Assembly: GCA_010031465.1 (NCBI GenBank)
Contig: RGZR01000001.1
Coordinates: 1 to 48,866 of the forward strand
Reading direction: 5' to 3'
Source: Flavobacteriia bacterium
Lineage (GTDB): Bacteria > Bacteroidota > Bacteroidia > Flavobacteriales > Flavobacteriaceae
Length of the DNA: 48,866 nt
Position 1 is the first letter of the stretch; each line of letters starts with the position of its first letter. Below the pieces are notes generated by a model. It saw nothing but the letters and a program-made list of their open reading frames with translations. It searched no databases and was not told the origin of the DNA. The position numbers were made by a program, and so were the translations under genes. Shown in pieces: positions 24,973 to 33,951 of the stretch.

Positions 24973-25635
24973 ATGGCACTAGATAAAAATCATATCGCGA
25001 AAAGAATTGCCCAAGAATTACAGTCGGGATACTATGTGAATTTGGGAATAGGTATTCCTACACTCGTAGCAAACTATGTACCTCCAGGTTTGGAAATTGA
25101 ATTTCAAAGTGAAAATGGCATATTGGGTATGGGCCCCTTTCCTGTTGAAGGTCAAGAAGATCCCGATTTGATCAATGCAGGTAAGCAAACCATAACGGCA
25201 CTTCCTGGGGCGAGTTTTTTTGATTCTTCCACAAGCTTTGGAATGATACGCGGGCAGCATGTAGATTTAACCGTATTGGGTGCAATGGAGGTTTCTGAAC
25301 GAGGAGATATTGCCAATTGGAAAATCCCGGGAAAACTAGTGAAGGGAATGGGGGGTGCGATGGATTTAGTGGCCTCTGCTAAAAATATCATCGTGGCCAT
25401 GATGCAGGTAAATCGAAGTGGAGAATCAAAATTAGTATCTCACTGTAGTTTGCCCTTAACAGGTGTAGCCTGTGTAAAACGCATAGTTACAGAGTTAGCT
25501 GTTTTTGATATTGTAAAAGAGGGTTTTCTTCTTGTAGAAAGAGCGCCAGGGGAAACAATTGAAACCATTCAAAACGCAACAGCCGGCACTTTGATCGTCC
25601 CAGATCAGATTCCTGAAATGAGATTTTCTCTTTAA
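24973..25635 (+). CDS. scoB: 3-oxoacid CoA-transferase subunit B
   Basis: Beta subunit carrying the catalytic glutamate, Glu47 in the conserved SENGILGMGPFP. The 220 residues also show GYYVNLGIGIPTLVANYVP, STSFGMIRGQHVDLTVLGAMEVSERGD and GMGGAMDLVA, as expected. It follows scoA by 2 bases and ends the etfBA-scoAB cluster. There is no strong terminator in the 48 bp before the DUF1080 gene, though that gap ends in a T-rich stretch. Confidence 0.94.
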   Translation: MALDKNHIAKRIAQELQSGYYVNLGIGIPTLVANYVPPGLEIEFQSENGILGMGPFPVEGQEDPDLINAGKQTITALPGASFFDSSTSFGMIRGQHVDLTVLGAMEVSERGDIANWKIPGKLVKGMGGAMDLVASAKNIIVAMMQVNRSGESKLVSHCSLPLTGVACVKRIVTELAVFDIVKEGFLLVERAPGETIETIQNATAGTLIVPDQIPEMRFSL

Positions 25636-25683
25636 GAGGTTGGTTTTCATTTTTCTTTCTTAATTTTAATAAAATTTTATACA

Positions 25684-26427
25684 ATGACACGCACCACATT
25701 TTACTTAGTATTAAGCTTTATTCTATTTGTTCAATGTCAAAATGCAACGTCTTCTAATAAAGCAACTTCAGAAGATTCATCAATGAAAGCAGAAGAGCAG
25801 GCTTGGATAGACCTCAGCCCAAAGGACAGTTTTGACGGATGGCACATTTATCAAAATGAAGACGGAACCAAAACTGGGTGGACTGTTGCAGATGGTGTGT
25901 TTACCTACAATTCAGCCGATGCTAGTGGAGAAGGCAATAAGAGTTTATTAACCAATGCCACCTTTGGAAGTTTTGAAATTCAATTTGAATGGAAACTTTC
26001 ACCGGAATCCAATAGCGGTTTTATGTGGGGGGTAAGTGAAGACCCCATGTATGAACATCCCTTTGTTACCGGACCTGAAATACAAATTATTGATACTCAA
26101 GTGTATGGAGATGACCCAGAGCATCAAGTACACACAGCTGGAGCACTTTATGATATGGTGCCCCCCGATCATTTAATGGCAAAACCTGCAGGCGAATGGA
26201 ACAGTTATCATATTACTATTAACCACGAAACAAATTTAGGAACTGTGGTACATAACGGTATGGAAATTAACCGTTTCCCATTGCATGGTACCGAATGGGA
26301 TACCATGGTAGCCAATAGTAAATTTGCCACTATGGAAGGTTTCGGAAAGTACACTGAAGGGCATTTGAGTTTACAAGATCACCCGGGAATTATTTCCTTT
26401 CGAAATATTAAAATCAGAAAACTGTAG
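25684..26427 (+). CDS. DUF1080 lipoprotein (3-keto-glycoside hydrolase family)
   Basis: A 247-residue predicted lipoprotein: signal peptide with lipobox FVQC (Cys18), a Ser/Thr-rich linker, then a concanavalin-like DUF1080 domain from about residue 40. Recognisable segments are LSPKDSFDGWHIYQN, FGSFEIQFEWKLSPESNSGFMWG, GPEIQIID, AGALYDMVPP, GEWNSYHITINH and the ending GIISFRNIKIRKL. Some members cleave 3-keto-glycosides; activity here is inferred from family only. It lies in the outer or inner membrane facing the periplasm. The next gene begins 2 bases downstream. Confidence 0.85.
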   Translation: MTRTTFYLVLSFILFVQCQNATSSNKATSEDSSMKAEEQAWIDLSPKDSFDGWHIYQNEDGTKTGWTVADGVFTYNSADASGEGNKSLLTNATFGSFEIQFEWKLSPESNSGFMWGVSEDPMYEHPFVTGPEIQIIDTQVYGDDPEHQVHTAGALYDMVPPDHLMAKPAGEWNSYHITINHETNLGTVVHNGMEINRFPLHGTEWDTMVANSKFATMEGFGKYTEGHLSLQDHPGIISFRNIKIRKL

Positions 26428-26429
26428 TA

Positions 26430-26771
26430 ATGGTTCAAAAAACCTCTTCTCGAATTGATTTAAACAGACTGTTCAGTAGTGTATTAATCATTTTATTACT
26501 CTTGCCTACGGGGTTAAAACTGATACATGCTATTGCTTATCATTCTACTTCGGAAGATTGTAAAATTGATAGGGTTCACTTACACGCTACTAATCAACAT
26601 AATGAAGCCCTAGATTATTTTTTCCAGCCCCTGGCCCAAAATATAGAAGTTCCTGAGTTTACTCTTGTACCCCCTACTTTTTGGACAATACAATCCGTTT
26701 ACTCGGTTCATTTATTTTCCTACTCTCAAACCGGAAAAAGTTCTCGAGCGCCCCCTGTTTTTGTTTTCTAA
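26430..26771 (+). CDS. Small His/Cys-containing exported protein of the uptake cassette
   Basis: A 113-residue protein I cannot name. It has one hydrophobic segment (about 15-33, SVLIILLLLPTGLKLIHA) acting as signal or anchor, then a region with potential metal ligands: HAIAYHSTSEDC, HLHATNQH. It ends with SRAPPVFVF, a tail I associate with small Bacteroidota proteins encoded beside TonB receptors. It lies 2 bases after the DUF1080 gene and about 60 bases before a lipoprotein gene and a ZnuD-like receptor, suggesting a role in periplasmic metal handling or sensing; this is inference. Confidence 0.6.
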   Translation: MVQKTSSRIDLNRLFSSVLIILLLLPTGLKLIHAIAYHSTSEDCKIDRVHLHATNQHNEALDYFFQPLAQNIEVPEFTLVPPTFWTIQSVYSVHLFSYSQTGKSSRAPPVFVF

Positions 26772-26834
26772 ATATAACCATAGAGTCAATACTTGATTCT
26801 CAATCTTAGTAAAACAAAAACCCTAATTTATCTC

Positions 26835-27377
26835 ATGAAAATTTATCAAAAGTATCTAAAAACCTTTGCGTTAACTGTATTCATTATCTCCCTATCATGT
26901 ACTAAAGAGGCACCAGAATTGGTTGATGAACAGGAACTCATCACCACTGTTCGCCTCTCTATAAAAGGCCCAAATAACAGCCTTCAAGAAGCGGAATGGA
27001 AAATGGACGCTCCAAATACAAGTACCATTCAATTGGCCCCTCAAACACAGTATGAAGTAACGATCTCTATTTGGGATGAAAGTGATCCCTCAGATCCAGA
27101 AAATATTACAAACGAAGTAAAATCGGAAGCTGATGAGCATCAGTTTTTTTATGAATTTGCAGGTGTAGAGATTGACTTTAATTCAGCAACTTCGGATGTA
27201 GTCGATTCACAAAACAACCCCCTTTATGTTGTTTCTGAATGGAATACTGGTGCACTGGGTGAAGGCTCAGTTCAAGTTTACTTGATTCATGATCCCACAA
27301 CTAAAACCAGTACCAATCGAGCAGGTTTTGGCGGTGCCACCGATGTGCAAGTTGCGTTTGATATTCGTATTGAATAA
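26835..27377 (+). CDS. Uncharacterised lipoprotein paired with a TonB receptor
   Basis: A 180-residue predicted lipoprotein (signal peptide with ISLSC, Cys22). After an acidic linker come a predicted beta-sandwich region with LITTVRLSIKGPN, the conserved-looking EADEHQFFYEFA segment near residue 110, and GGATDVQVAFDIRIE at the C-terminus. These resemble a Bacteroidota family found beside TonB-dependent receptors, sometimes considered part of metal uptake; no biochemical function is established to my knowledge. The ATG at 26835 is chosen over an upstream in-frame start at 26793 because it directly begins the signal peptide. The receptor starts 11 bases downstream. Confidence 0.7.
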   Translation: MKIYQKYLKTFALTVFIISLSCTKEAPELVDEQELITTVRLSIKGPNNSLQEAEWKMDAPNTSTIQLAPQTQYEVTISIWDESDPSDPENITNEVKSEADEHQFFYEFAGVEIDFNSATSDVVDSQNNPLYVVSEWNTGALGEGSVQVYLIHDPTTKTSTNRAGFGGATDVQVAFDIRIE

Positions 27378-27388
27378 TGTATAACTAG

Positions 27389-29800
27389 GTGTTTCGTGCT
27401 GAATGTATTTTTTGTTTTCTCATAAGCTTTTGGAGTGGTTTTTTAACCGCTCAAGAGTGCCCTTTTTATTTGCAAGGTAGAGTGATCGATTTGCATGACG
27501 GGACACCTATTTTTGGAGCCATACTTCGAATTGAAAACACAGGGCAATTTGCACAAACCGATGAAGATGGGGTTTATCTGCTCAAAAACGTTTGTTTGGA
27601 GGAATTGCGATTGATCATTTCTCATTCTGAGTGTCAAACTCTAGAACGCCGAATTCAACTTTCCGAGAATCAAAGTATAGATTTCGAATTAGAGCATCAT
27701 ATCAATACACTAGAGGAGATTGTTGTGTCCGAAAAACAAAAGGCAAATGTGAATCAGAGCGTAGCCGAGGCACGTTTAACCGCTACACAAATTGATCAAT
27801 ACAGCAGTCAAAGTTTAGCGACTGCCTTGGGGTCGCTTACAGGAGTTGCTACACTAAAAACAGGGAATGCTATAGCCAAACCAGTTATACATGGACTGTA
27901 TGGAAGTCGTGTAGGAATAGTAGCAGAAGGAATCCGACTGCAAGATCAAGAATGGGGAGCTGACCATGCGCCCACCATTGACCTTAACGCGTTTGAAAGC
28001 GTTCAAGTAGTAAAAGGGGCATCTGCACTTAAATACGGTGGGGATACCGCTGGAGGAGTTATCATTTTAAATTCCTTTACTCCTTTGCCACGGGATAGTC
28101 TATATGGCAAAACAAGACTGACAGGCTCAAGTAATGGACGTGGTGGGGCGGTATCTTCGCAATGGATATTGACGCGCGCTACGGGATTTTATTTTAGCGG
28201 GCAACTCACGGCAAAACGTTTTGGAGATTTATCCACACCTGAGTACATACTAACCAATACAGGGCTTAAAGAAGGAAACATAAATTTCAAAATTGGCCGA
28301 TCAAAAGTGATTAAAGGCTGGGAATTATTCTATTCGCGATTTCAAAATGAAACGGGGATTTTAAGAGCTGCACACATCGGAAATATCCAAGACCTATTGC
28401 GGGCACTGCAATCAGAGGTACCTTTGGTACAAGACCCTTTTTCTTATAGGATAGATGCCCCCAAACAGCAAGGAGTTCACCACTCTATTCAGGCCAAAGT
28501 ATACAATCAGTTTTCAGAGCACAGTAAATGGAAAATCGACTATAATTACCAGCAAAATCAACGTAAAGAATTTGATATACGACGCGGGGATCGAGCCGAT
28601 CTACCCGCGCTGGATTTACAGCTACAAACCCATAGTATTTTAGGAAGCATTCAAAAAAAAGTAGACTTTGATTGGGACTTTGAGTGGGGCATCAACGGAT
28701 ACCTTCAAGACAATTACTCTAATCCGGATACTGGAGTGAAACGATTAATTCCCGATTACCTCAAGTACCAATGGGGTAGTTTTTTAACAGGAAAATATGA
28801 GCCAAACAACTTAGGCTCTTTTGAATGGGGGCTTCGACTGGATCAAGTGAATTGGGATGTACAAAAATACTATACCCGTAAAGACTGGACGGACCGAGGG
28901 TACGACCAATTGTTTCCTTCTTTTGAAAAGGAATATTTGCCTACACAACTTCTAACACAACCCCAATTTCAGTTTATCACCCTTTCTGCTCATGCGGGAT
29001 TCTCAATTCAACTTGGCCCAGCGCTAAAAAGTACCGGGGCCTATATTTTGTCTCAGCGCTCACCCAATGCAGCAGAACTTTTTAGTGACGGACTCCATCA
29101 TTCTTTAGCCACAATAGAATACGGAAATTTAACTTTAGACAAAGAGACTTCACATAAAATTTTAGTCTCCGTATCTACCGAAAAAAATCCGTTTTCTTTT
29201 TCTCTTGAACCCTACCTGGCACGGATTCACAATTACATTTATATTGCACCCAAAGAGGTGCAACAAACCATACGTGGCGCTTTTCCAGTTTGGCAATACA
29301 ATGCAACCGAGGCCCTGTTGTGGGGATTTGATTTTCAAGGATCACTAGATCTCTCCCCTCGAGTTCAATTCAATTCAAAAACTTCATATGTTCGTATTAA
29401 TGATATAAGCCAATCTCAACCGGTAATTTCAATACCTCCCTTTCAGACAAATCAGAAGTTGTCTTACATTTTTCCAAAAAAGGAAGTGCGTATTGAAATT
29501 GAAAATCAATTTGTATCTTCCCAACGTTATTTTCCCGATTTTAATGTGGTTGTAAATACCTTAGAGGGAGATAAAATAGTGGGTCAGTTAGTGGATTTTA
29601 GCACCCCTCCCAAAGCCTATTCACTATACAACCTAAATATTTCCTTACCTTTGAAAGTAACCCCAAAATTATCTGGACAACTCCGCCTTATGATCCACAA
29701 TATAACCCAAACAGCCTACCGTGATTACCTCAACAGAATGCGTTTTTATGCAGACGAGATGGGAAGAAACGGTAGTATTCAACTGATTCTTAACCACTAA
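27389..29800 (+). CDS. TonB-dependent outer membrane receptor, ZnuD-like
   Basis: An 803-residue outer-membrane receptor. Signal peptide (about 1-21), a carboxypeptidase-like beta domain (about 27-105), a plug (about 115-225) with VIHGLYGSRVGIVAEGIRL, GADHAPTIDLNAFESVQVVKG and SALKYGGDTAGGVI, then a barrel to the C-terminus. The arrangement GL-x-G-x-RV followed by DHA in the plug is shared with ZnuD-type zinc receptors and relatives. Substrate is not proven; copper or another ligand is possible. The start is GTG at 27389; the preceding ATG at 27378 is out of frame and runs into a stop. With the two preceding genes it forms an uptake cassette. Confidence 0.85.
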   Translation: MFRAECIFCFLISFWSGFLTAQECPFYLQGRVIDLHDGTPIFGAILRIENTGQFAQTDEDGVYLLKNVCLEELRLIISHSECQTLERRIQLSENQSIDFELEHHINTLEEIVVSEKQKANVNQSVAEARLTATQIDQYSSQSLATALGSLTGVATLKTGNAIAKPVIHGLYGSRVGIVAEGIRLQDQEWGADHAPTIDLNAFESVQVVKGASALKYGGDTAGGVIILNSFTPLPRDSLYGKTRLTGSSNGRGGAVSSQWILTRATGFYFSGQLTAKRFGDLSTPEYILTNTGLKEGNINFKIGRSKVIKGWELFYSRFQNETGILRAAHIGNIQDLLRALQSEVPLVQDPFSYRIDAPKQQGVHHSIQAKVYNQFSEHSKWKIDYNYQQNQRKEFDIRRGDRADLPALDLQLQTHSILGSIQKKVDFDWDFEWGINGYLQDNYSNPDTGVKRLIPDYLKYQWGSFLTGKYEPNNLGSFEWGLRLDQVNWDVQKYYTRKDWTDRGYDQLFPSFEKEYLPTQLLTQPQFQFITLSAHAGFSIQLGPALKSTGAYILSQRSPNAAELFSDGLHHSLATIEYGNLTLDKETSHKILVSVSTEKNPFSFSLEPYLARIHNYIYIAPKEVQQTIRGAFPVWQYNATEALLWGFDFQGSLDLSPRVQFNSKTSYVRINDISQSQPVISIPPFQTNQKLSYIFPKKEVRIEIENQFVSSQRYFPDFNVVVNTLEGDKIVGQLVDFSTPPKAYSLYNLNISLPLKVTPKLSGQLRLMIHNITQTAYRDYLNRMRFYADEMGRNGSIQLILNH

Positions 29801-29812
29801 ACTTCCCTTTTT

Positions 29813-30498
29813 TTGAAGTATTTAATTCTTACACTTTTGTGTTGTGTAACATTATTGGATGCCTATTTAATTGGCTTCGATATCCCCTAATGGTCAGCTT
29901 TGGGCTGAAATATATATAGCCCTTTTATTTGCTGATTACTATTGCTTAACATCAAAGTATAAGCGAAAAACGATTTTTTTTGCCCTTTTGTTTTTGGGTT
30001 TGGGCGACCTTTTTCTGAACCTTGAAACCCCTTCGTATATGTTACAATGGGGAGTGTTTTTTTATTGGGTTATGCAGCTATTATTGCTCATAGATTTTAT
30101 TTGTTTTCCAAATCCCCTTCGGTATTCAATCAGAGAGCACAGTTTAGGCATTTTATTTTATGCTTCTTATTTCATCATTTTTATGAACCATGTATATGCA
30201 AGTTTGGGTAACATGAAATGGCACGGCTTGGTGTATGGAATTACTTTTTCTCTCTTTGGTAGTTTAACCCTTATGGAATTACTTAAACTTCCTAATATGG
30301 AAAATGGTTTGCTCTTTTTTGGTCTTTTGCTCTTTTCCGTTCGCGATGTATTATTAACCTACAATAAGCGCTATTTTGAAAACGACGTTTTTACTTATCC
30401 TATTCCCCTTTTTCATGTCATTGGATTTTATTTTATGTTAAGCTTTCATAAAAAAAGAAGAAATTGTATTTTCAATGGAAGCAAAAAACCCAATATGA
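29813..30498 (+). pseudogene. Integral membrane protein gene with two apparent +1 frameshifts
   Basis: Three reading frames join into one plausible 227-residue multi-spanning protein. Frame 1 begins at TTG 29813 and encodes a hydrophobic N-terminal helix until CCC-TAA at 29885-29890. Frame 2 (from 29889, open from 29871) encodes about six more hydrophobic helices with LGLGDLFLNLE, reminiscent of YhhN/TMEM86 proteins. After the A7 run at 30450-30456, frame 3 ends at TGA 30496-30498, overlapping the next ATG as ATGA. Removing one C and one A restores the full gene. Alternatives are a TTG start at 29871 fused in frame to the following gene (392 residues), sequencing errors, or programmed slippage. 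Family assignment is weak. Confidence 0.55.
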
Positions 30499-31049
30499 GA
30501 TTTATAGTAGTCCTGCTATACCTGCTGTTTATTCAGTTTACGTTGGCTCAAGAAGACACTGTAGAAGGTTTGTATGCTGATCCCTCTGTAGAAACTCAAT
30601 ATGCCTTTGTTCAAGAATTGCTCTATGTGGCAGGCTATGTACCTGAACAACTTGAAATTTATCAAACCCTTCCGAATTATGCTCATGTTTACAGGGTAAA
30701 GTTAGATTCATTAACAGGAGGTTTTATGTTTGTTCGTTGGGATAAAAACAAAAAAGAACATTTTTTAGACAACAAAAGGATCGATCCAGGATTGTATTAC
30801 AATCTCAATGTCGCTCGAGAATTGATGCGTTCTCAAGCCAAAAAAACATTTTTTACCTCAGAAGATATTGCCATACAAGCTTCAGATCAAAAGAAGATTA
30901 ATACCCAAGATATTCTAGAAATACGGGAAAGTTTTGAACTTAAAGAAGAAGAAAAAAGGATAGAAGCTCTAGAATTAAAAAAAAACCAAAAGCAAAAAGA
31001 ACAACTAAAGATAGAACGAAAATCGAAACGTAAAAAAATTAAATCGTAA
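30495..31049 (+). CDS. Secreted protein with basic coiled-coil C-terminus, unknown function
   Basis: A 184-residue protein with a clean signal peptide (MRFIVVLLYLLFIQFTLAQ, cleavage after about residue 18). The middle (about 20-130) contains YAFVQELLYVAGYVPEQ, VYRVKLDSLTGGFMFVRWD and GLYYNLNVARELMRS; I do not recognise the family. The last 50 residues are almost all Lys/Glu/Arg, predicted coiled coil, ending very basic. An internal signal peptide argues this is a separate gene although the frame is open from the upstream membrane gene. The 3' end overlaps the convergent Rieske gene by 11 bases. Confidence 0.6.
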   Translation: MRFIVVLLYLLFIQFTLAQEDTVEGLYADPSVETQYAFVQELLYVAGYVPEQLEIYQTLPNYAHVYRVKLDSLTGGFMFVRWDKNKKEHFLDNKRIDPGLYYNLNVARELMRSQAKKTFFTSEDIAIQASDQKKINTQDILEIRESFELKEEEKRIEALELKKNQKQKEQLKIERKSKRKKIKS

Positions 31050-31479
31050 TCGTTAACGTATCCCCTTCTAAAGTGGCAGTATAACAGGTCAACCCTCCAC
31101 TACAAGAATTTGAATAGGTGTTGTTGTGATGCCCACATTCAAATGATGAACCGTCGTAGCTCCAACGATCACGATTGCCTTGATGAGGACATTTGTTGTC
31201 AAAAACGCGGACTTCCTCTTTATTGATACGCAACAACAAAATATTTTTGGAGGTGTAATTTAACCACCCGCCCACTGTTTTTAATCCATTTAAATCTCCA
31301 TCATTCAGGTTAAGGACCAAAGGTTCTTTTGCAGAACTCCCATTGTTATTGTTGTTTAGAACGGGGTCCATAGATTCCATATCCTCAGTGCTGCACGCTT
31401 CGATTAGGGATATACCAAAACTTGCAAAAACCACGTTTTTACAAGCTGTTTTTAAAAAGTCTCTACGGTTGTTTTTCAT
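31039..31479 (-). CDS. Tat-type Rieske [2Fe-2S] lipoprotein
   Basis: A 146-residue protein with twin arginines (NRRDFLK) and a hydrophobic stretch ending in a lipobox IEAC (Cys29), so it is probably exported folded and lipidated. After an Asn/Ser-rich linker, the Rieske domain holds Cys97-x-His99 (CPHQG) and Cys115-x-x-His118 (CGHH), the four cluster ligands. It is a single-domain Rieske protein, not a bc1 or oxygenase subunit. Its partner is unknown; no cytochrome or oxidoreductase is adjacent. It is divergent from the TonB receptor at 31588. Confidence 0.88.
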   Translation of the reverse strand: MKNNRRDFLKTACKNVVFASFGISLIEACSTEDMESMDPVLNNNNNGSSAKEPLVLNLNDGDLNGLKTVGGWLNYTSKNILLLRINKEEVRVFDNKCPHQGNRDRWSYDGSSFECGHHNNTYSNSCSGGLTCYTATLEGDTLTITI

Positions 31480-31541
31480 TTTTGTTTAAAATTAAATAAA
31501 AATAATTAAACAAACAAATAGTTTACCTTGCCTCTTTACTT

Positions 31542-31549
31542 TATTTTTG
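31542..31549 (+). promoter_or_regulatory. -7 box of the second TonB receptor gene
   Basis: TATTTTTG matches TAnnTTTG, 38 bases upstream of the receptor ATG at 31588. The -33 region (around TAGTTT at 31519-31524) is a poor match. Confidence 0.4.
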
Positions 31550-31587
31550 TTGTCAATTGTGAGTACATAGTTTATAATAAAACAAGC

Positions 31588-33951
31588 ATGGTAAAAAATA
31601 TAGCGTTAGCATTGAGTCTTTTCTTCCTTTCTTATGTAACTGCCCAAGAAACAGGAACACTTACGGGACGCGTCCTTGATTTAAAATCACAACAACCCCT
31701 TGAAGGAGCTACACTTATTTTGGAAGGAACAACCCTTGGGGTTGTCACTAATGAACAAGGATATTTCAGTATTGAAAATATACCCGTTCAAACCTACAAT
31801 GTAGCGGTTAGTTTTTTAGGCTATGAATCGCAGACCTTGTACAATGTAATTGTAAAATCGGTGGGAAATATTCCGCTGCTCTTCCAGTTAGAGGAACTTA
31901 CAGAATCATTAGACGAGGTAGTGGTTACAAAAAGTCCATTTAAAACCACAACTGAAACACCGCTATCAACGCAAACTTTTTCGGCAGTAGAAATTGAAAC
32001 CTATCCAGGTGGGAATAATGACATAACTAAGGTAGTTCAAAGTATGCCGGGAATTTCTCCTTCTATCGGTGGGTTTCGAAATGATATCATTATTCGAGGA
32101 GGTGCGCCTAATGAAACGGTATATTACCTTGATGGGATTGAAATCCCTAACATAAATCACTTTAGTACGCAGGGTAGTGCAGGCGGCCCTGTAGGTATGA
32201 TTAATGTTTCTTTTGTTCGAGAGGTGACACTATCAAGTTCTGCCTTTGGAGCCGAATACGATAATCCCTTATCCGGTGTGCTCGCATTTGAACAACGAGA
32301 AGGAGACCCGAATGGTTTTGGAGGTAATTTTAGGTTTGGAGCTAGTGAAGCAGCATTAACTTTAGAAGGCCCCCTTTTTAATAGAAAAAGTGATGAACCT
32401 GCTAAAACCACCTTTTTATTTTCTGTTCGACGCAGTTATTTGCAATTCCTTTTTGAATTAATAGGCCTCCCCATTCGCCCAGATTATTGGGATTACCAAT
32501 GGAAAATCAAACACGAAATTGACGCGTATAATTCGTTAACTTTTATTGGGTTGGGGGCAATTGACGATTTTTCAGTAAAACCTCCTAAAGAATTTGATTT
32601 GGAGCAACAATCTGTTCTTGAGCAAGTCCCAATTATTAATCAACGCAGTACCACTGTTGGTCTTTCTTGGAAAAGGAACTACAAAAACGGAAACGGTTTT
32701 ATGACTACAGCTTTAAGTACAAACCGCCTGGACAACATCTTTTCGCGCTTTCAAGACAATGTAGCGCAAACCGGGGTAATTTTTGAAAACGACAGTTATG
32801 AATGGGAAACCAAACTGAGGTACCAAACCACTCATTATCTGAACGAATGGAAGTGGTCGGCAGGGCTTAATTTACAACAATCAGCGTATCAAAATAACAC
32901 CCGTTTTGTGTTTTACGATATCGCCTATGCTACAACGTTTGATTTTATCAAATACGGAATGTTTACCAAAGCATCACGAAGCTATTTTAATGATCGCTTA
33001 AACGTTTCCTTGGGCCTCCGTGCAGATGCAGATACCTTTACTACAGGATCTACACTAGTAGACAATCTTTCTCCACGCATGTCCTTTTCTTATGCACTAA
33101 CAGAAAATCAAGAGTGGAAATTTAATGCCAGTATGGGGCGTTATTTTAAAATCCCAACCTACACCATGTTAGGATTTCAAGATCAACAAGGAGATTTTAT
33201 TAATCAATCCGCTGAGTATACCCAAAGTAATCATTGGGTTGCGGGCTTAGAATATAACCTTACACCTTCCTCACGCTTTACCGTCGAGGGGTTTTTAAAA
33301 CGGTACAATCAGTATCCAATATCTTTAATTGATGGAGTGGCCTTGGCTAACAAAGGCGGCGGATTTGAGGTTTTAGGGAATGAAGCCATTACCTCTACAG
33401 GTAAAGGGAAAAGTTCTGGAGCAGAGCTTCTTTTTCAACAAAAATTAGCCCGTAATTTTTACGGCGTGTTTGCTTATACATACTTTTTTAGTGAATTTAC
33501 TGGGATTGATCAAAAGTTTCGCCCTTCGGTTTGGGACAGTCGGCATTTGATTTCTTTTTCAGGAGGCTATAAACTTAGAAGAAATTGGGAAATTAGTGCC
33601 CGCTGGAGATTTGCAGGTAAAAACCCCTATGTACCTGTAGACGTTGAACAAAGTGCGTTATCCTACCCCGAACTCATCTTAGACTATGATCGTTTAGGTG
33701 AGGTTAAGTTAGACGCTTTTAATTTGGCCGATATTCGCTTTGACAAAAAATGGAATTTTAAAAACTTGTCATTCAACCTTTATATAGAAGTTCAAAACTT
33801 TCTGGCTCAACCCAACCCAACACCCGAAGAATATGGATTGAGTAGAAATGAAGACGGAAGCATTAAAAAACCTCTTACCTTAACTCCTTTATCCACAACA
33901 GAAGGAAACAGAACCCCTTTGCCTTCTTTTGGATTTGTACTTTATTTTTAA
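31588..33951 (+). CDS. TonB-dependent receptor with carboxypeptidase-like domain
   Basis: A 787-residue outer-membrane receptor. Signal peptide (1-19, ending VTAQ), a carboxypeptidase regulatory-like domain (about 24-105, LTGRVLDLKSQQPLEGAT), a plug (about 115-235, VQSMPGISPSIGGFRNDIIIRGG, YLDGIEIPNINHFSTQG), and a barrel ending FGFVLYF with the aromatic C-terminus of outer-membrane proteins. No SusD partner follows, so it is not a SusCD glycan pair. Substrate unknown. The ATG at 31588 begins the signal peptide; the open frame continues 60 bases upstream. It ends 3 bases from the convergent rimM stop. Confidence 0.9.
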   Translation: MVKNIALALSLFFLSYVTAQETGTLTGRVLDLKSQQPLEGATLILEGTTLGVVTNEQGYFSIENIPVQTYNVAVSFLGYESQTLYNVIVKSVGNIPLLFQLEELTESLDEVVVTKSPFKTTTETPLSTQTFSAVEIETYPGGNNDITKVVQSMPGISPSIGGFRNDIIIRGGAPNETVYYLDGIEIPNINHFSTQGSAGGPVGMINVSFVREVTLSSSAFGAEYDNPLSGVLAFEQREGDPNGFGGNFRFGASEAALTLEGPLFNRKSDEPAKTTFLFSVRRSYLQFLFELIGLPIRPDYWDYQWKIKHEIDAYNSLTFIGLGAIDDFSVKPPKEFDLEQQSVLEQVPIINQRSTTVGLSWKRNYKNGNGFMTTALSTNRLDNIFSRFQDNVAQTGVIFENDSYEWETKLRYQTTHYLNEWKWSAGLNLQQSAYQNNTRFVFYDIAYATTFDFIKYGMFTKASRSYFNDRLNVSLGLRADADTFTTGSTLVDNLSPRMSFSYALTENQEWKFNASMGRYFKIPTYTMLGFQDQQGDFINQSAEYTQSNHWVAGLEYNLTPSSRFTVEGFLKRYNQYPISLIDGVALANKGGGFEVLGNEAITSTGKGKSSGAELLFQQKLARNFYGVFAYTYFFSEFTGIDQKFRPSVWDSRHLISFSGGYKLRRNWEISARWRFAGKNPYVPVDVEQSALSYPELILDYDRLGEVKLDAFNLADIRFDKKWNFKNLSFNLYIEVQNFLAQPNPTPEEYGLSRNEDGSIKKPLTLTPLSTTEGNRTPLPSFGFVLYF

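Follow-up and report, generated by a model that had tools for sequence, protein, structure and literature searches.

The stretch of DNA analysed here (the window) is 48,866 nt from the genome assembly of a Flavobacteriia bacterium. Three open reading frames lie in close order on its plus strand, where the initial annotation had placed an outer-membrane uptake cassette:

26430..26771, + strand: small ORF, probably a leader, 113 aa, exported, with a His/Cys cluster and the C-terminal residues SSRAPPVFVF
26835..27377, + strand: lipoprotein gene, 180 aa, with a predicted Ig-like β-sandwich and surface-export-like residues after the lipid Cys
27389..29800, + strand: TonB-dependent receptor gene, GTG start, ZnuD-like, with an N-terminal CarboxypepD_reg-like domain

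The order in the window is thus leader-lipoprotein-receptor, while most of the loci fetched have leader-receptor-lipoprotein. The leader ATG is located 2 bases past the stop codon of the preceding gene; a promoter or operator of its own between the two was ruled out, as there is no room. By eye, the leader starts at or near another gene's stop in many relatives. A gap of 63 nt separates the leader from the lipoprotein gene, for which the best start is the ATG at 26835, giving the lipobox LSC, rather than the TTG at 26793 that opens the longest ORF. No intrinsic terminator was found behind the leader, the sole site in 25600-30000 being within the receptor gene, and an Rfam scan of 25600-30000 returned no match at E≤1.

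A gene-neighbourhood survey, the first check suggested with the initial annotation, showed that receptor and lipoprotein co-occur. The receptor (E≤1e-60) was found in 63/149 genomes of the family and the lipoprotein in 62/149; 61/149 have both, conservation beyond chance. In the rest of a phylum-wide Bacteroidota sample, 67 other genomes had a lipoprotein match at E≤3.4e-12. Sixty of these loci were fetched and 55 have a receptor homologue inside the fetched stretch, at a distance from the lipoprotein gene of ≤254 nt in 53 of the 55. Receptors are absent from the fetched stretch in G210 (locus L140) and L184, and at L182 a distance of 1.8 kb, holding an ORF on the opposite strand, separates the receptor and lipoprotein genes.

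A small ORF with a PP-containing tail precedes the receptor in 41/41 discovery loci and 22/22 held-out loci, or 63/63 family loci overall; the filter (PP among the 14 C-terminal residues) was chosen once the first 41 had been inspected. A leader was also found in 35/60 phylum-sample loci elsewhere in Bacteroidota and in 76 of the 78 receptor-bearing named loci; in the two exceptions the receptor is cut by the end of the contig. The named loci include those of Ulvibacter litoralis and Cellulophaga baltica. The leader search covered only the region in front of whichever gene, receptor or lipoprotein, came first. Four loci first scored as leaderless (L158, L165, L166 and L185) were moved to the leader group after a laxer search, a match in an odd frame at L178 was rejected and not counted, and the last RxPP was used at six loci with more than one PP (L160, L161, L162, L167, L175 and L189). 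Among the TonB receptors of the window's own genome, only the window receptor (L004) has a PP-tailed leader before it; 8 of 11 plug matches were inspected (L001-L008), several of these loci having a partial receptor frame.

The first ORF encodes, as annotated, a small exported protein with clustered His and Cys. It has an N-terminal hydrophobic segment and the residues H33, H38, C44, H50, H52 and H57, and no Pfam match at E≤1. The first reading of this DNA overlooked two features, the C-terminal RAPP of the protein and RNA pairing at the end of its gene:

26745..26756, + strand: codons of the RAPP arrest motif, CGA GCG CCC CCT, read from the sequence
26757..26771, + strand: 5' arm of a stem, formed by the codons after RAPP and the stop (VFVF-stop), from the fold and a swap test across genomes
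26782..26800, + strand: inner 8-bp hairpin between the arms, from the predicted fold of the window genome alone
26806..26821, + strand: 3' arm, which stops 13 nt short of the lipoprotein ATG, from the predicted fold

R[AG]PP occurs in 49/63 family leaders and [RK]xPP in 62/63. In 61/63 leaders [RK]xPP is located ≤8 residues from the C-terminal end, compared with 3/287 other small ORFs; PP was part of the search filter, the Arg of RxPP was not. Exactly three residues stand behind PP in 34/63, and the remainder of the leader is variable, with a mean column identity of 16%. CxxC is present in 60/94 leaders, and in these 60 the last Cys lies a median of 46 positions before the Arg of RxPP, leaving 45 residues between (10th-90th percentile 44-51 positions). 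The window leader lacks both the near-invariant second Cys and CxxC, so this spacing does not apply to it; in its case 49 positions lead from the last His of the cluster to the RAPP Arg (Arg106). The leader of the nearest relative (L039) also lacks CxxC. HYC_CC_PP (NF047658) was considered as the same leader and rejected, the copy in the window's own genome (L079) having no RxPP tail. On sequence criteria, the small gene has the anatomy of a RAPP-type leader, namely a small exported protein encoded upstream of a gene with RAPP near its stop, and it may arrest ribosomes as published for RAPP/RGPP peptides, CruR among them (PMC12992588).

Several published systems resemble this arrangement. In the CruR-bfrG(crtA)-bp2921 operon of Bordetella pertussis, a small exported leader likewise heads a TonB-receptor operon, the third gene is likewise an accessory protein, and CruR has RAPP near its C terminus with 45 residues from CxxC to RAPP, the median of the CxxC leaders here (PMC9426467). 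That operon differs in its metal, copper, and in having a 162-nt intergenic region, Rho termination and a PepSY partner (PMC9426467), whereas the present cassettes have a lipoprotein partner, a ZnuD-like receptor, a His-rich motif and pairing across the start region of the following gene; in the window the gap measures 63 nt and the leader has no CxxC. CutF-CutO shares an exported metal-binding leader with a C-terminal proline motif, and an mRNA stem-loop that shields the start region of the next gene, as proposed below; however, copper favours stalling and oxidase expression in that system, the proline motif is not RAPP, and in the available text arrest is not demonstrated (PMC9973294). TonB-like proteins and Bacteroidota are among the neighbours of CutF-like proteins, some CutF-like clusters are rich in His alone and regarded as not copper-specific (Ni, Co), and the accessible part of the study names no zinc system (PMC9973294). 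RAPP leaders before TonB receptors are already in print as the RAPP/RGPP uORFs, the same class of small secretory proteins found across Gram-negative phyla (EMBO J 2025, PMC12992588), although the available portion of that report gives no zinc link, lipoprotein partner, RNA stem or leader/operator alternation. With SecM, ApdA and ApdP, too, the next gene is controlled by an exported leader that arrests close to its end; these peptides monitor protein localisation (PMC10951233, PMC10987492), whereas a metal-binding motif is added here.

The RNA immediately in front of the next start codon can pair with the codons past RAPP, and this pairing is genome-specific beyond chance. The window stem has a fold z of -3.77, and 0/200 shuffles were as stable. 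With kinship ignored throughout, pairing was better between the two arms of one genome than between arms exchanged among genomes, both in the discovery set (n=41, permutation p≤0.0005) and in the held-out set (n=22, p≤0.0005), the phylum set (n=31, p≤0.0002) and the named set (n=67, p≤0.0002). The named set omitted eight loci as presumed repeats of genomes already used, and also L213, which matches none; with L213 kept (n=68), own arms scored 15.50 vs. 13.51 (p≤0.0002). A pairing score ≥17 was reached by 49% of 63 leader ends vs. 8% of 438 other ORF ends. In an alignment of every named locus whose gap measures 24-52 nt (n=49), 81.0% of cells pair, and covariation scored above each of the 500 shuffles and above all slid controls; the number of pairs with changes on both sides, five, is not unusual (230/500 shuffles), and the further pair types are just mildly unusual (42/500 shuffles). 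In an alignment of 33 of these 49 loci, 90.2% pair, 4/8 pairs have two-sided changes and covariation is above 500/500 shuffles, a count that favours the stem because its loci were picked by eye as alignable; RNAalifold returned no consensus structure for this 33-locus alignment. The stem is short and AU-rich, and a strong ungapped stem is missing in about half of the leaders, including that of L039.

These observations bear on the role of the small protein, which had been annotated as an uptake component. Such a protein could function as a mature chaperone in the periplasm, binding metal and delivering it to the receptor, with RAPP incidental, and its export, its His/Cys-rich composition and its being encoded with the receptor in 63/63 family loci would all fit. 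Against this, [RK]xPP is fixed near the stop while the rest of the protein varies, the gene end joins in genome-specific pairing, and the relatives CruR and CutF are reported to be short-lived (PMC9426467, PMC9973294), so we regard this role as highly improbable. Because RxPP is the most conserved feature and the gene ends inside the pairing stretch, we set the uptake-subunit reading aside; the protein has the anatomy and position of an arrest-peptide leader, and the small gene is probably a leader ORF rather than a part of the uptake machinery.

The lipoprotein contains EADEHQFFYEF and GGATDVQVAFDI, as annotated, and Y73, H102, L150, H152 and D170 are invariant across 58 lipoproteins. Its predicted structure (pLDDT 93.4) is an Ig-like β-sandwich. 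There was no match in Pfam at E≤1, none by Foldseek with the model at E≤0.001 and none below E 0.002 in a PDB profile search; VIA-align scores were at Z≤8.4, a level that common Ig-like arrangements also reach and that points to no function. A literature search covering few subscription papers found no description of this family. After the lipid Cys, the window protein reads C-TKEAPE, resembling C-X-K-(D/E)2, and the consensus of the 58 is C-S-x-DDD. The export motif of surface lipoproteins (LES) has polar or charged and then acidic residues behind this Cys (PMC5080379), and the lipoprotein may well be located on the surface.

The receptor (model pLDDT 85.3) consists of CarboxypepD_reg-like, Plug and barrel domains, and the plug DHA and GL-x-G-x-RV signature noted initially is present as GADHAP and GLYGSRV. 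Three sets of residues are candidates for metal contact:

27458..27700, + strand: N-terminal domain with C24, H36, C69, H79, C82, H103 and H104, a possible periplasmic metal site, each residue conserved in 59-62/63 receptors
27962..27967, + strand: plug D192-H193, aligned with the ZnuD zinc ligands D99-H100, with an inferred chain numbering offset of 14
29096..29098, + strand: H570, aligned with the ZnuD zinc ligand H499

Neisserial ZnuD is not known to have an N-terminal Cys/His domain, a leader or a lipoprotein partner. ZnuD (PDB 4RDR) has, like the window receptor, a D/E-H pair in the plug and a His in loop 6 (PMC4557270). Position 192 is D or E in 63/63 receptors, H193 is present in 63/63 and a His at position 570 in 57/63; the position of ZnuD E340 is acidic in just 44/63. 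ZnuD was the only PDB sequence match at E≤1e-5 and the top PDB profile match (88.8 bits), ahead of a TonB-linked receptor (78.7, mainly over the N-terminal domain and plug), OprC (69) and the colicin I receptor (59.5), with the best heme receptor at 47. Against NCBIfam, the ZnuD profile NF038289 gave 86.5 bits, not reaching its cut-off of 950, and heme families outscored it at 112 and 97 bits, all far below cut-offs; TIGR01785 (TonB-dependent heme receptor) gave 112.2 bits against a cut-off of 316.85.

HmuY-HmuR is a lipoprotein and receptor pair of Bacteroidota. The window receptor could similarly import heme or an organic metal complex, as would suit the pairing with a lipoprotein, the NCBIfam TonB-hemin profile that covers the receptor at 112 bits, and a conserved His between stretches that we take to be like FRAP and NPNL. 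However, the closest solved relative is ZnuD rather than a heme receptor, the lipoprotein has no Pfam match, and ZnuD itself resembles heme receptors yet binds zinc and not heme (PMC4557270), which makes heme-type import quite improbable in our judgement. Since ZnuD is the top solved relative and three of its four zinc ligands are well conserved, zinc appears the likeliest metal.

Gene neighbours elsewhere point in the same direction. At L182 the gene of a ZigA-like GTPase (311 bits) begins 68 nt after the lipoprotein gene, and in G305 the palindrome found at related cassettes (WTGCAACAnTGTTGCAW) also precedes an AztD-like zinc chaperone gene and a MerC gene; the AztD-like, ZigA-like and ZnuD assignments are all under curated cut-offs. 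Fur-family genes adjoin the lipoprotein or receptor gene in G210, G321, G301 and G305, the G210 protein being placed at family level only. The palindrome lies upstream of 11/25 leaderless cassettes vs. 1/35 with a leader; it was read from L140, which therefore matches by construction. A literature search of limited scope tied no named regulator to it. At ≤3 mismatches the window's genome has 25 copies vs. 13 for a control pattern, the nearest on the window contig being at 16820 in a search limited to this one palindrome type. No Zur/Fur-type site, for which the initial annotation had suggested a search, was found by this means at the window cassette, where there is no room before the leader, and one Fur-family gene was found in the 85% complete assembly. 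In a Caulobacter Zur study, a DUF2946 protein encoded next to czr genes is listed as having a predicted Zur site (PMC4176598), and a Riemerella ZntR study lists TonB receptors with no usable link to the cassette (PMC11960050).

Copper is a possible metal as well. The same arrest-leader design would then be a Bacteroidota branch of CruR with a copper-importing receptor. RAPP and the CruR spacing agree with this, CxxC leaders, 60 of the 94, are of the copper type, and the copper porin OprC is third among the profile matches. The L182 leader passes the DUF2946 cut-off (35.2 bits, cut-off 23.7), while the window leader does not match this family (PF11162) and only 4/94 leaders do at E≤0.01. A CopA-like ATPase gene after the L151 cassette and a CcoI-like ATPase gene divergent to that of L134, both labelled by eye from motifs, would also fit copper. 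Other labels given by eye from motifs are second and third thioredoxin-reductase-like genes (L297, L298) and RuvB-like genes (L295, L296). Against copper, the ZnuD ligand positions are kept and an OprC-type Met/Cys site was not noticed among the conserved columns, CxxC is missing in the window copy and its nearest relative, the neighbours and palindrome partners are of zinc type, and the uORF study reports RAPP/RGPP uORFs of Cu-related genes as not seen in Bacteroidota (PMC12992588). We consider the copper version unlikely.

We therefore favour, with moderate confidence, an outer-membrane acquisition cassette for zinc or a zinc-like divalent metal, governed by a ribosome-arrest leader. From the initial annotation, the idea of a cassette for metal uptake, with a lipoprotein of its own and zinc as the first candidate, is retained on the strength of the survey, of ZnuD as nearest solved relative with matching ligand positions, and of the zinc-type neighbours and shared palindrome elsewhere; the small protein is now read as a probable leader. 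Transcription would enter from the upstream gene, and the leader would be translated and exported co-translationally. When metal is scarce, the nascent leader would stall at RAPP, the P and A sites of the ribosome being occupied by the two proline codons; the stalled ribosome would cover the codons past RAPP and free the RNA upstream of the next start codon, so that the exposed start site allows translation of the lipoprotein (in the window) or the receptor (elsewhere). When metal is present, it would bind the His/Cys cluster of the leader, and folding or pulling of the chain would release the arrest; the ribosome would end at the nearby stop, the stem would form and translation of the uptake genes would fall. 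CruR, a published relative, works in this manner for copper. The lipoprotein may capture metal for the ZnuD-like receptor, which would pass it on via the D/E-H ... H site, with a possible contribution of the N-terminal Cys/His domain.

More tentatively, a zinc sensor acting as a nascent chain may have taken the place of a Zur-type repressor for this cassette in Flavobacteria; the sensor would be the exported leader with its His/Cys cluster, and its RAPP arrest, relieved by zinc, would work a start-masking stem. Related cassettes would switch between operator and leader control, and the window lineage would retain a His-based sensor after losing CxxC. In the published accounts available, the metal-sensing arrest leaders that have been studied functionally, CruR and CutF, sense copper, and the literature search, covering few subscription papers, found no arrest leader linked to zinc. 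A zinc version widespread in Bacteroidota, if true, would mean that nascent chains can replace a metal-responsive repressor, and would explain how metal could still control a cassette that begins just 2 bases behind an unrelated gene and has no visible promoter or operator. It would also offer a function hypothesis for a lipoprotein family with five invariant residues and no Pfam match, and the route of zinc across the flavobacterial outer membrane would become directly testable.

The cassette comprises three ORFs on the same strand:

26430–26771, + strand: exported small protein with clustered His and Cys, 113 aa (the leader)
26835–27377, + strand: lipoprotein, 180 aa
27389–29800, + strand: TonB-dependent receptor, 803 aa

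The window is on contig C1 of a 1.85-Mb assembly that is 85% complete. Of 149 family genomes surveyed, 62 have the lipoprotein, 63 the receptor (E ≤ 1e-60) and 61 both. We fetched 62 receptor-bearing relatives, plus a contig end carrying only the lipoprotein; with the window this gave 63 receptor loci, handled in two rounds (41 discovery, 22 held out). A lipoprotein of the same family is recognisable beside the receptor in 61/63 loci, including L068 and L071, recognised by eye, and L082, where BLAST gives a match but no clean ORF is seen. The exceptions are L098, with a different lipoprotein, and L101, which has none. In a phylum-wide sample of Bacteroidota, the lipoprotein family occurs at E ≤ 0.001 in 87/296 genomes; 67 genomes besides the window's match at E ≤ 3.4e-12, and most remaining matches cover only the N-terminal part. 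When 60 of the 67 were fetched, a receptor homologue was present in the fetched stretch in 55, lying within 254 nt of the lipoprotein in 53. The initial annotation was right to group the three genes. Behind the window cassette (29871–31049 and 31042–33951), the first ORF joins a YhhN domain to a C-terminal half without a match; this long frame, which starts with TTG, may contain two genes. Next come a Rieske-type protein, whose TAT-signal match is weak, and another TonB receptor that has CarboxypepD_reg.

All 41 discovery loci have, upstream of whichever comes first, receptor or lipoprotein, an ORF of 97–136 aa whose last 14 residues include PP, and such a PP-tailed ORF precedes the cassette in all 22 held-out loci. 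The C-terminal motif of these 63 leaders reads R[AG]PP in 49, RxPP in 59 and [RK]xPP in 62, with exactly three residues after PP in 34. [RK]xPP lies within 8 residues of the end in 61/63 leaders, versus 3/287 of the remaining small ORFs on those strands. Among 80 loci with organism names (the named set), the receptor is found in 78 and the leader in 76; in both receptor loci that miss the leader, the receptor gene is cut by the end of the contig. The phylum sample yields leaders in 31/60 loci by the first criterion (30 of 31 with R[AG]PP), to which a more permissive search adds four (35/60), against a background in which any PP-tailed small ORF lies within 900 nt upstream of 7/103 other genes. 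The body of the leader is highly variable, with a mean column identity of 16% across 94 leaders; near-invariant are H33, H38, one Cys column and R106, while the invariance of the two prolines is a product of the search filter. At least four His lie within residues 20–80 in 85/94 leaders. The cluster of the window leader consists of H33, H38, C44, H50, H52 and H57, and both a second Cys and CxxC are absent. The window leader's ATG is only two bases past the stop of a 3-keto-disaccharide-hydrolase-like gene, so that a separate promoter or operator would not fit in between. From its conserved RxPP tail and its position before the cassette, the small gene is probably a leader, a regulator rather than the uptake component it had been taken for, and that earlier assignment is not borne out.

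Some loci have, behind the cassette, another small His/Cys ORF that resembles a leader: 3′ of the receptor in L101, where it has RAPP near its end, and 3′ of the lipoprotein in L048, L064, L073 and L099. These ORFs suggest that leaders occur in tandem or that a further gene is controlled. L079, on contig C19 of the window's genome, has a small exported Cys protein of the HYC_CC_PP family, possibly another metal-related small protein of Bacteroidota.

In the window, the post-RAPP codons and stop (26757–26771) pair with 26806–26821 around an inner hairpin, and the 3′ arm ends 13 nt before the lipoprotein ATG. The stability of this stem has z = −3.77, with 0/200 shuffles as stable, and the mean z at the same place over 41 loci is −2.17. 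A swap test compared each leader's own arms with arms exchanged between genomes, which separates pairing from base composition. Own arms outscored swapped arms in the discovery (17.15 vs. 13.59) and held-out (16.23 vs. 13.46) sets, each with permutation p ≤ 0.0005, and in the phylum (15.42 vs. 13.19, 31 loci) and named (15.48 vs. 13.46, 67 loci) sets, each with p ≤ 0.0002, the relatedness of loci being ignored in these and the other RNA pairing tests. Scores of at least 17 were reached by 49% of 63, 35% of 31 and 40% of 67 leader ends, versus 8% of 438 other ORF ends (≥150 aa). When every named locus with a 24–52-nt gap is aligned (49 loci), 81.0% of cells pair, and none of 500 shuffles and no slid control reaches the observed covariation score. 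Nineteen cells changed on both sides, a number attained in 0/500 shuffles, with 20 in the slid control +1; the number of pairs with two-sided changes, five, is ordinary (230/500 shuffles). Figures are better for 33 loci chosen by eye (90.2% paired, 4/8 pairs with two-sided changes), and RNAalifold predicted no consensus stem on that alignment. A strong ungapped stem is missing in about half of the loci. A second similar-looking hairpin, of the TACTGCTATT..GCAGTA type, occurs in receptor signal-peptide codons in L042, L044, L048, L063, L072, L075 and L077.

Upstream of leaderless cassettes we found a palindrome, WTGCAACAnTGTTGCAW, the pattern being read from L140 (the locus of genome G210) and matched with up to 3 mismatches within 150 nt. 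In the first grouping it occurred in 11/29 leaderless vs. 1/31 leader loci, with ~0.005 per locus expected; after four loci were moved to the leader group, the counts were 11/25 vs. 1/35 (p = 0.0001, relatedness ignored). Eight genomes with leaderless cassettes hold 19 sites at ≤1 mismatch, compared with 2 for a control pattern, and in 7/8 the cassette itself carries such a site, the sole one in G210 and G301. Sites away from the cassette occupy 11 further places. In G305 they precede an AztD-like gene (66 bits, cut-off 400; also matches to AztD in the PDB), a MerC gene, a DUF4625 lipoprotein and a thioredoxin-reductase-like gene, and by eye a gene similar to the last follows the site in G332 and G391. 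The palindrome stands beside a RuvB-like gene, no pointer to zinc, in G328 and G195, and the other places are uninformative. In G210, G321, G301 and G305 a Fur-family gene is the neighbour of the lipoprotein or receptor; the G210 protein is given no subtype by NCBIfam, and the fetched G210 stretch contains no receptor. A single Fur-family gene is present in 22/35 genomes with a leader vs. 7/25 leaderless ones (p = 0.01). The window genome has one, together with two ZIP-family genes.

The receptor's only PDB sequence match at E ≤ 1e-5 is the zinc receptor ZnuD. A profile of 58 receptors also placed ZnuD first (88.8 bits), followed by a TonB-linked receptor (78.7, mainly N-terminal domain and plug), OprC (69), the colicin I receptor (59.5) and, at 47 bits, a heme receptor. 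NCBIfam gave the receptor 112 and 97 bits for heme families vs. 86.5 for ZnuD, all far under the cut-offs. Zinc in ZnuD is bound by D99, H100, E340 and H499 (PMC4557270). With a numbering offset of 14 that was inferred, and the third position placed from the profile alignment alone, the aligned positions in 63 receptors are Asp/Glu in 63, His in 63, acidic in 44 and His in 57. Just before the plug sits a conserved Cys/His set of the N-terminal domain (27458–27700), with C24, C69, C82, H36, H79, H103 and H104 each kept in 59–62 of 63 receptors; the set possibly relays metal in the periplasm or serves as a redox site. The lipoprotein is modelled as an Ig-like sandwich (pLDDT 93.4), for which structure comparisons found no close solved relative. 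Y73, H102, L150, H152 and D170 are invariant in 58 lipoproteins, and the residues after the lipid Cys resemble a surface-export signal described in PMC5080379.

Near the lipoprotein, COG0523 GTPases were recognised by motif in three phylum loci (L157, L182, L184). That of L182 has its nearest match in ZigA, a zinc chaperone (311 bits, cut-off 600), and lies 68 nt after the lipoprotein, with a leader–receptor pair 1.8 kb upstream of the latter. The fetched stretch of L184 shows no receptor, and in L157 an ORF judged MerC-like by eye lies ahead of the receptor. Of the metal uptake originally proposed, with zinc as the metal, the involvement of a metal stands, and ZnuD as nearest solved relative and the ligand positions make zinc fairly likely; a share of the small protein in uptake is not supported.

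Ribosome arrest by RAPP and RGPP has been published (PMC12992588; PMC10951233), and small secretory proteins with either near the C terminus have been described upstream of TonB receptors across Gram-negative phyla (PMC12992588). For CruR of Bordetella pertussis, arrest has been shown with the two Pro codons in the P and A sites (PMC12992588); CruR is the first gene of a TonB-receptor operon and senses copper via CxxC, 45 residues before RAPP (PMC9426467). CxxC is present in 60/94 of our leaders, with the same median of 45 residues to RxPP. DUF2946, the CruR family, is matched at E ≤ 0.01 by 4/94 leaders, and the L182 leader exceeds its cut-off (35.2 vs. 23.7 bits). Unlike CruR, the window leader has neither a DUF2946 match nor the second Cys of a CxxC. 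Because the CxxC spacing is shared and some leaders match DUF2946, the family seems to grade into CruR, with the window copy failing two CruR features. Copper as the metal would fit the CxxC-bearing leaders and a CopA-like neighbour in L151, and we regard it as rather improbable. CutF-like proteins form a broader published class, in which some members have His only and are believed to sense other metals (PMC9973294). For zinc, the metal we favour, a Cys2His2 finger has been studied on ribosomes stalled by a SecM variant ending in RGPP, and it is already known that zinc can drive the folding of a nascent chain while an arrest motif keeps the ribosome stalled (PMC8100117).

RAPP leaders before TonB receptors are, as a class, already in print. 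In the literature searched we found no description of the present variant, in which a His-rich, partly CxxC-less leader, a ZnuD-like receptor, a surface-type lipoprotein and pairing over the next start are combined with alternation with a Fur-type palindrome. In SecM, the stalled ribosome frees the start region of the next gene. The pairing layout here is the same, and is also that proposed for CutF, with the stalled ribosome exposing the next gene's start region. Judging from the usual footprint, most of the 5′ arm would lie under a ribosome that has stalled at the Pro codons, and metal-sensing arrest at RAPP would in this way govern translation of the lipoprotein and receptor genes behind the leader.
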